Assembly (NCBI GenBank): GCA_021799615.1
Contig: JAJZAC010000010.1
Span: forward strand, 1 to 44,883
Origin: Actinomycetes bacterium
GTDB lineage: Bacteria > Actinomycetota > Acidimicrobiia > Acidimicrobiales > RAAP-2
DNA: 44,883 nt
Direction: 5' to 3'
A model generated the notes under the pieces. It worked only from the letters and a program-made list of their open reading frames with translations. It made no database searches and was not told the DNA's origin. The translations under genes were made by a program, and so were the position numbers. Below, in pieces: positions 21,985 to 40,191 of the stretch. Every line of letters starts with the position of its first letter. Within the stretch, counting starts at the first letter, position 1.

Positions 21985-22083
21985 GTGCGTCCCCTGCGGG
22001 TCTGTGGTTGCAAGTCGATGCCAGTCGCAGGCGAAACGACCCACGTAAGGCAACTCCTGGTTGCTGAGCATGGTGCGGCTTAG
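21985..22083 (+). CDS. Putative leaderless small ORF (32 aa) upstream of hpf
   Basis: VRPLRVCGCKSMPVAGETTHVRQLLVAEHGAA*; start codon correctly spaced from TACACT; segment GC ~62% and low GC3 compared with neighbours. Confidence 0.35.
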   Translation: MRPLRVCGCKSMPVAGETTHVRQLLVAEHGAA

Positions 22084-22384
22084 GGGTAAGTCCTGCCCGT
22101 CGCGTCCCCGATCCCCGGGGGCGGGCGGAGACGGGGAGACGCGGGCGTCCAACGGCGCCGCCGGGTCACGGAGCGCCCCTGGCGCCCCGCGGCCGCCGGC
22201 CCGTGCCCGCCAACCTCGCTGCAGGCGAGTGTGGGGTCAAAGACCAGGTCAGCCGCAGGTGACGCACACCGCCGCCCGGCGCGCGCCGGGGTGGCCGGGG
22301 AGGTGCCGCCGAGCACCCTGACCCGAGCATCCGGACACCGGTGCCCGGGTGCGCCCGGACGCCCCGAGACGAGGAGGCGAGCAC

Positions 22385-37321: not shown

Positions 37322-38482
37322 GTGGACCTCGCGCTCCCCCCTTCCGACGACCCCCGGCGGTCGGACGTCCGCCGGTGGCTGGCCCAGCACCCCGACCCGT
37401 CGCCCCGCCAGCTGGCCGAGGCCGGCCTCGTGGCTCCGCACTGGCCGTCGCCATGGGGACGTGGCGCCGATCCCGTCACCCAACTGGTCATCGACGACGA
37501 GCTCCGTGCGGCCGGCGTCCACCGGCCGGACAACCCCATCGGGATCGGGTGGGCGGGGCCCACCATCATCCACGCCGGCTCCGAGGCCCAGAAGGAGCGC
37601 TACCTCGTGCCCCTCCTGGCCGGTGAGGAGGTGTGGTGCCAGCTGTTCAGCGAGCCGGGAGCCGGCTCCGACCTGGCCTCGCTCACCACCCGGGCGGTGC
37701 GGGACGGCGACGAGTGGATCGTGTCGGGCCAGAAGGTCTGGACCTCCTACGCCCACGTCGCCCAGTTCGGGATCCTCCTGGCGCGCACCGACCCCGAGGC
37801 GCCGAAGCACCGGGGCATCTCCTACTTCATCTGCCCCATGGACGCACCGGGCGTGACCGTCCGGCCGCTGCTCGACATGACGGGGGCCCACACGTTCAAC
37901 GAGGTGTTCCTCGACGACGTCCGCCTGCCCGGGGCCAACCTGGTGGGCGAGGCCGGCGACGGATGGACGCTGGCCAAGGTGACCCTGGGCAACGAGCGGG
38001 TCTCACTGTCGGGTGCCGGCGCGTTGTGGGGCATGGGCCCCACGGCCGACGACCTGGTCGGCCTGGCCCGGCGGTCGGGCGGCGTGACCGATCCGCTGCT
38101 GCGGGACCGCCTGGCACGGGTGTGGATCGAGGGCGAGGTGCTCCGCCTGCTGCGGCTGCGGCTGGTCTCCGCTGCGGTGGCGGGCCGCCAACCGGGTCCG
38201 GAGGCATCGGTCCGCAAGGCACTGGCCGACGACCACGGCCAGCACGTCATGGACCTGGCCCGTGACCTGGCCGGTGCCCGCGCCCTGGTGGACGGGACGG
38301 GGCCCTTCCCCGGACCGGTCGACGGTGACGCCGGTCCCGGGCACGCGTGGCCCGAGAACATCTGGTCCTACGGGTTCCTCTTCGCCGCCGCCCTCACCAT
38401 CGGGGGCGGCACCTCGGAGGTCCAGCGGAACATCATCGCCGAGCGCACCCTGGGCCTGCCCCACGACCCGGCCGTCGCCTGA
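37322..38482 (+). CDS. Acyl-CoA dehydrogenase
   Basis: WCQLFSEPGAGSDLASLTTRAVRDGDEWIVSGQKVWTSYAHVAQFGILLART...MGLARDLAG-like C-terminal half ending GGGTSEVQRNIIAERTLGLPHDP. Confidence 0.93.
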   Translation: MDLALPPSDDPRRSDVRRWLAQHPDPSPRQLAEAGLVAPHWPSPWGRGADPVTQLVIDDELRAAGVHRPDNPIGIGWAGPTIIHAGSEAQKERYLVPLLAGEEVWCQLFSEPGAGSDLASLTTRAVRDGDEWIVSGQKVWTSYAHVAQFGILLARTDPEAPKHRGISYFICPMDAPGVTVRPLLDMTGAHTFNEVFLDDVRLPGANLVGEAGDGWTLAKVTLGNERVSLSGAGALWGMGPTADDLVGLARRSGGVTDPLLRDRLARVWIEGEVLRLLRLRLVSAAVAGRQPGPEASVRKALADDHGQHVMDLARDLAGARALVDGTGPFPGPVDGDAGPGHAWPENIWSYGFLFAAALTIGGGTSEVQRNIIAERTLGLPHDPAVA

Positions 38483-38503: not shown

Positions 38504-38980
38504 TCAGCCGGTGATCGGGCCGGCGTCCTCGTAGCCCTGGCGGACGCCCGTGCCGGCACGCCGGGTCAGCTGCTCGGGCTCGTAGAGCATCCAGTAGGCG
38601 TTGCGGGCGTGCTTGCGGGCGCGGTCCACGCACACCTCGGCCAGGCGCGCGGGGTCCTCCTCCTCGTTCTCGTGGACGAAGACCTCGAGGATGTGGGTGG
38701 AGGTGAGCAGCTGGGCCAGCATGATCCCCTGGGAGGCCTCGTGGGCGCACACCTGGTCGATGGCCGCCCTGCCCGGCATGCCGAGGGCCACCACGATGCG
38801 GCACCCCTCGTCCTCGATGAGCCGCTTGGCCTCGACGGCCAGGTCCTTGAACCCGGGCACCGTCCGCCGCAGCACCTCGAACGTCCGGCCGTGCCCGGGG
38901 CAGGCGGCCAGTTCGTCGGCGGCCTCCGCGCCCATGTCGTACCGGGCGAACATGGTGTCCACCACGCCGATGCGGTCCAT
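38504..38980 (-). CDS. Archaeal-type riboflavin synthase (RibC-like, lumazine-synthase-related fold)
   Basis: MDRIGVVDTMFARYDMGAEAADEL...LRRTVPGFKDLAVEAKRLIEDEGCRIVVALGMPGRAAIDQVCAHEASQGIMLAQLLTSTHILEVFVHENEEEDP...PEQLTRRAGTGVRQGYEDAGPITG; matches, block by block, the remembered archaeal RibC pattern VGIVDTTFAR.DMA / RKTVPG.KDLPVA.K.L.EEGCD.V.ALGMPG / VCAHEAS.G..LAQL.T..HI.EVFVHEDE / LTR.AG.G.RQG.EDAG. Confidence 0.85.
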   Translation of the reverse strand: MDRIGVVDTMFARYDMGAEAADELAACPGHGRTFEVLRRTVPGFKDLAVEAKRLIEDEGCRIVVALGMPGRAAIDQVCAHEASQGIMLAQLLTSTHILEVFVHENEEEDPARLAEVCVDRARKHARNAYWMLYEPEQLTRRAGTGVRQGYEDAGPITG

Positions 38981-38993
38981 GGCCGGCAGCCTA
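38981..38993 (-). promoter_or_regulatory. Candidate leaderless promoter for the riboflavin-synthase-like gene (-10 TAGGCT, 7 nt to ATG)
   Basis: Minus strand TAGGCT-GCCGGCC-ATG. Confidence 0.5.
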
Positions 38994-39048: not shown

Positions 39049-40191
39049 TCAGCCGCCCGACACCAGCAGGTCGGCACCCACCGGGGGCGTGGGGTCGTCG
39101 ACGTCGTCGAGCCAGCCGTGGGGAAGCTGGACGGGGCGCGGACCGCCGGTGTGGCCGCGCCGGACCCGGCGCCCCTCGTCGGGGAGGACGAGGTCGGGGT
39201 CGATGTCGTCCAGCCGGGCGGCCAGCTCGGCGAGCGACTCCACCAGGGCCAGGTTCCGGCGCAGCTCGGGGCCGACCGGATAGCCGGCCAGGTACCAGCC
39301 GGCGTGCTTGCGGAAGCGGAGGATGCCGAGCCGTGGCCCGAAGGCGTCGGTGAGGAGCCCGGCGTGCTCCACCATGGTCGCGGCCACCTGGCCGAACGTC
39401 GGCGCCGCCAGAGGCGGGGCGCCGGCGAAGGCCCGGGCCAGGTCGGCGAAGAGCCAGGGCCTGCCCAGGCAGCCGCGACCGACCACCACGCCGTCGCACC
39501 CGGTCGCCGCCACCATGGCCAGGGCGTCCGACGCCTCCCACACGTCGCCGTTGCCGAGGACGGGCACGCCGTCGACGGCTGCCCGCAGGGTGGCGATCGC
39601 CTCCCACCGGGCCGCACCGGCGTAGAGCTGCTCGGCCGTCCGGGCGTGGAGCGTCACGGCGGCCGCACCGGCGCCGGCGGCCAGGCGTCCCGACTCGACG
39701 AAGGTGAGGTGGTCGTCGTCGATGCCCATCCGGAGCTTCACGGTGACGGGCACGCCGCCGGCCGCCGTCACCGCCGCCTCGACCACGCCTGCGAACAGGC
39801 GCCGGTGGGCGGGAAGCGCCGCCCCGCCGCCCCGCCGGGTCACCTTCGCCGCCGGGCAGCCGAAGTTGAGGTCGACGTGGTCGACGCCGATCTCGTCCAC
39901 CAGCAGGCGCACGGCCCGGTCCATCACCACCGGATCGACCCCGGCCAGCTGCACGCTGCGGACGGGTTCGTCGGGCTCGAAGGTGGCCATCGCCACCGTG
40001 CGGGCGTTCCGCTCGACCAGGGCCCGGGCGGTCACCATCTCGCTCACGGTCAGCACGCCACCGAACCGCCGGCACAGCCGGCGGAACGGCCCGTCGGTCA
40101 CGCCGGCCATGGGCGCGAGGACGACCGGGGGGTCGAGGGCGAGCGGCCCGATACGCACGCCCGGGACCACCGGGGCGGGTGTCAGGCCCAC
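39049..40191 (-). CDS. dus: tRNA-dihydrouridine synthase
   Basis: PVVLAPMAGVTDGPFRRLCRRFGG...SVQLAGVDPVVMDRAVRL...VDLNFGCPAAKVTRRGGGAAL...VPVLGNGDVWEASDALAMVAATGCDGVVVGRGCLGRPW. Confidence 0.95.
   Translation of the reverse strand: MGLTPAPVVPGVRIGPLALDPPVVLAPMAGVTDGPFRRLCRRFGGVLTVSEMVTARALVERNARTVAMATFEPDEPVRSVQLAGVDPVVMDRAVRLLVDEIGVDHVDLNFGCPAAKVTRRGGGAALPAHRRLFAGVVEAAVTAAGGVPVTVKLRMGIDDDHLTFVESGRLAAGAGAAAVTLHARTAEQLYAGAARWEAIATLRAAVDGVPVLGNGDVWEASDALAMVAATGCDGVVVGRGCLGRPWLFADLARAFAGAPPLAAPTFGQVAATMVEHAGLLTDAFGPRLGILRFRKHAGWYLAGYPVGPELRRNLALVESLAELAARLDDIDPDLVLPDEGRRVRRGHTGGPRPVQLPHGWLDDVDDPTPPVGADLLVSGG

Follow-up and report, generated by a model that had tools for sequence, protein, structure and literature searches.

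The gene at positions 38504-38980 of the window (the whole stretch of 44,883 nucleotides that was analysed) encodes a protein of the archaeal RibC family, which is very probably the sole riboflavin synthase of its bacterium, acting by the mechanism and arising by the history proposed below. Riboflavin synthase is usually thought to be split between domains, with a trimeric RibE in bacteria and a pentameric RibC in many archaea. Our comparisons point, with good confidence, to a complete, clade-wide displacement in one branch of the order, in which archaeal-type RibC took the place of bacterial RibE in about eleven sampled family-level groups, with a precise loss of ribE from its operon. An entire bacterial branch would have switched its riboflavin synthase and kept the remaining bacterial pathway, a natural swap of the essential last-step enzyme of vitamin B2 synthesis in actinobacteria of soil and water (the Acidimicrobiales and related groups). 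We found no report of such a clade-wide displacement, or of RibC as the sole enzyme across a clade, in the open-licence PMC papers searched.

Family assignment of the RibC protein

The ribC gene and the elements around it are the following:

about 37322..38482, plus strand: acyl-CoA dehydrogenase, convergent downstream neighbour (PF02770, PF00441)
38504..38980, minus strand: archaeal-type riboflavin synthase (ribC / ribE2 type), 158 aa (TIGR01506, M. jannaschii RibC match, AlphaFold model)
38988..38993, minus strand: putative -10 element TAGGCT of a leaderless-type promoter (sequence; position conserved among relatives)
about 39049..40185, minus strand: dus, tRNA-dihydrouridine synthase, upstream neighbour, outside the pathway (PF01207, E 4.2e-84)

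The ribC ORF runs over 158 codons from ATG to TGA; the initial annotation had positioned it correctly without giving its strand, which is minus. As 80 relatives of its product, 75-92% identical, were retrieved from other genomes, the gene is conserved and no spurious ORF. The assignment to the archaeal riboflavin synthase family, first made from four motif blocks, all of which are found in the product, is upheld by profile, PDB sequence and fold comparisons. The window protein passes the TIGR01506 (ribC_arch) equivalog with 191.5 bits for a cut-off of 100.55 (rounded, 100.6; E 7.6e-57), in a full-length alignment spanning profile positions 2-151 of 151, and 26 of 26 relatives match the same profile. 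Its top sequence relatives in the PDB are M. jannaschii RibC (2b98; E 6.5e-52, about 56% identity) and constructs derived from it. NCBI automatic naming would already label ribC-type proteins riboflavin synthase.

Instead of a riboflavin synthase, the product might be a RibH2-like second lumazine synthase or some other enzyme of DMRL fold, since its only Pfam match is to the superfamily-level DMRL_synthase (PF00885, 50 bits), a fold common to both. This is most improbable. With 23.6 bits, the protein falls far below the cut-off of 84.6 of the lumazine synthase equivalog TIGR00114, while its TIGR01506 score is nearly twice the cut-off, and its identity to M. jannaschii RibC contrasts with the lack of any significant BLAST similarity to the RibH of the same genome. 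An AlphaFold monomer model built from 26 sequences (mean pLDDT 90.5, with low confidence for the C-terminal 20 or so residues) has PDB 2b98/2b99, the latter an inhibitor complex, as its best fold match (E about 1e-18; TM 0.89-0.92 for 2b98), against E about 1e-7 for lumazine synthases. By sequence and by fold, the window protein is nearer to RibC than to lumazine synthase; moreover, the presence of ribC follows the absence of RibE, not that of RibH. The Pfam search detected no Lum_binding domain (PF00677) in the window protein; this domain characterizes the trimeric bacterial RibE, which catalyzes the same reaction but is unrelated in sequence.

By analogy with M. jannaschii RibC, the protein would form a homopentamer of lumazine-synthase-like subunits, bind two molecules of 6,7-dimethyl-8-ribityllumazine and dismutate them to riboflavin and 5-amino-6-ribitylaminouracil, which may then be reused by the organism's own bacterial RibH.

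The ribC locus

The initial annotation described ribC as lying between an acyl-CoA dehydrogenase gene and dus, apart from other rib genes and with its own leaderless promoter. Pfam matches on the flanking ORFs agree with these neighbours, and the rib cluster indeed sits on another contig. The promoter proposal holds as well: TAGGCT, which begins 13 nt upstream of the ribC ATG in the 68-bp gap between dus and ribC, has counterparts in relatives, as a TANNNT motif begins 13 or 12 nt ahead of the start codon in 34 of 100 upstream regions, compared with about 2 over the entire interval from -16 to -6 in shuffled regions. The sequence is consistent with a leaderless ribC transcript. The convergent acyl-CoA dehydrogenase gene and an AMP-ligase gene recur beside ribC in many relatives, whereas dus and maf seldom do. 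A conserved dus-ribC operon linkage was rejected, the adjacency being missing in most relatives. Elsewhere in the window, positions 21991-22261 (plus strand) match the raiA structured RNA (RF03072; 135.7 bits, gathering score 101.3). In the loci that we scanned, neither ribC nor the rib cluster is accompanied by an FMN riboswitch or by any other Rfam family.

As the RibC family is best known from archaea, the contig might be an archaeal contamination of the bin. We give almost no credence to this, because the genes flanking ribC recur in related actinobacterial MAGs, ribC largely groups by family inside the order, and the isolate genome of Aciditerrimonas ferrireducens MV1 carries the gene; the isolate and the common neighbourhood already contradict such an origin.

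An archaeal-type riboflavin synthase is not new in Actinomycetota, given the precedent of roseoflavin-producing Streptomyces, in which ribE2 encodes an additional riboflavin synthase that closely resembles the archaeal ones and is considered by its authors to have been horizontally acquired (PMC11039241). The copy in the rosB cluster of an S. camelliae plasmid, the one plasmid record found to carry ribC, shares 66-67% identity with the window protein, more than M. jannaschii RibC with 56%; no ribC was found in phage records. Whereas the Streptomyces enzyme is additional and encoded in an antibiotic cluster (PMC11039241), the window ribC is stand-alone and apparently the sole enzyme. No linkage to rosB, ribX/ribY or gamma-glutamyltransferase was found at ribC, whose neighbours are dus, maf, acyl-CoA dehydrogenase and AMP-ligase genes.

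Distribution of the two riboflavin synthases

The source genome (2.8 Mb, 187 contigs, 88.5% complete) encodes RibD, RibBA and RibH equivalogs consecutively on a separate contig (locus L126), in the order def-fmt-rpe-ribD-ribBA-ribH-hisG:

L126 5271-6371: ribD (equivalog match)
L126 6368-7660: ribBA (equivalog match)
L126 7647-8183: ribH (equivalog match)

The upstream steps remain bacterial, being provided by RibD, RibBA and RibH of this rpe-ribD-ribBA-ribH-hisG cluster. The window protein is like archaeal RibC in length, conserved blocks, fold and sequence identity, but differs from it in serving in a bacterial host alongside these bacterial-type enzymes. Because ribD overlaps ribBA by 4 nt and ribBA in turn overlaps ribH, the cluster leaves no space for ribE. 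The ribH gene is an ordinary one and the sole other DMRL-fold gene of the genome, and a profile search of this 88.5% complete MAG found no PF00677 protein. The search for ribE, ribH, ribD and ribBA suggested by the initial annotation thus returned all but RibE. One such absence alone is weak, given the incompleteness of the source genome and the fact that most genomes considered here are MAGs.

The order-wide pattern and the operon gap depend on no single absence. Among 249 genomes of the order searched for both synthases, each over its cut-off, ribC was present in 40, RibE in 158, both in none and neither in 51 (Fisher p 3.4e-21, a value that overstates independence because the genomes are related). 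RibBA was found in 40 of 40 ribC genomes, of which 25 are at least 90% complete and none has RibE over the cut-off; one weak PF00677 match in a ribC genome (G217; E 1.8e-4) was treated as the below-cut-off one. PF00677 was likewise missing from all 17 further ribC genomes, including that of the cultured A. ferrireducens MV1, which has ribC without RibE. In the phylum sample beyond the order, we found one partial ribC match, located at a contig end (G488).

The gap between RibD and RibBA, measured on tblastn matches in retrieved rib clusters with both flanking genes, provides evidence independent of MAG contigs missing elsewhere, since these do not affect it. In all 37 ribC genomes it lies between -42 and 181 bp; in all 41 RibE genomes examined, where ribE occupies it, it lies between 527 and 2283 bp. 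One further cluster of ribD-ribBA-ribH type (L269) has a ribD-ribBA gap of 124 bp; it belongs to a 92% complete genome (G204, family code f41) in which neither RibE nor RibC was found, reflecting either a missing contig or another riboflavin synthase.

It is against these data that an additional role of ribC, comparable to that of ribE2 in roseoflavin-producing Streptomyces, has to be weighed; the gene would then act next to a RibE that the assembly lacks. The incompleteness of the source MAG would allow it, and RibE2 offers a model, being an additional copy that belongs to the rosB cluster (PMC11039241), also on the S. camelliae plasmid. Yet RibE is over the cut-off in none of the ribC genomes, no gap for ribE separates ribD from ribBA wherever the distance was measured in them, and rosB-type neighbours are absent from the window, which leaves this reading little likelihood. 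The initial annotation had asked whether RibC replaces or supplements RibE. The absence of RibE, the complete ribD-ribBA-ribH set, the order-wide exclusion and the loss of the ribE slot together argue for replacement.

The 51 genomes with neither synthase are probably for the most part riboflavin auxotrophs. Only 4 have a near-full-length RibBA match; the match is cut at a contig start in 1 (G004), missing in 24 and limited to the GTP cyclohydrolase II half in the remaining ones. With RibBA mostly missing or partial, they resemble auxotrophs and not users of a third enzyme. One of them, G006 (a single contig of 4.8 Mb, 99% complete), is a probable riboflavin auxotroph; G103, G233, G015 and G057 are also among the genomes of the order without either synthase. 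The ribC genomes call for caution, as a missing ribE is no ground for calling such genomes riboflavin auxotrophs.

Evolutionary history

In a RibBA tree (91 rows), the ribC/RibE state requires 3 changes, compared with 29 when shuffled; the deep branches carry RibE, ribC genomes lie in one nested part, and their monophyly is not rejected (p-AU 0.24). In the RibC tree, family groups within the order largely hold together. The simplest reading is that ribC was gained once or very few times and ribE then lost, with mostly vertical inheritance afterwards. In this scenario, an ancestor that gave rise to part of the order would have gained ribC at an unlinked site, a precise deletion would then have removed ribE from its place between ribD and ribBA, and the two states would then have been inherited mainly vertically. 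Sister families preserve the ancestral operon, which makes a before/after comparison possible.

From the distribution of the family as generally known, we infer an archaeal donor of ribC. The RibC tree includes one archaeal sequence, that of M. jannaschii, and places it jointly with Streptomyces, a position that we flagged as long branches meeting. Streptomyces RibE2 might conceivably derive from bacteria of this kind and not directly from archaea, and a bacterial source has now to be weighed for it.

A few records depart from the general pattern. The ribC genome G031 (family code f31; locus L183) was sampled along with family members that for the most part have RibE. Its RibBA groups with those of ribC genomes, which hints that the cluster was transferred or that the family is mixed. 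Two records titled Acidobacteria(ota) (L054 and L108) carry an Acidimicrobiales-type ribC and are probably misnamed MAGs.
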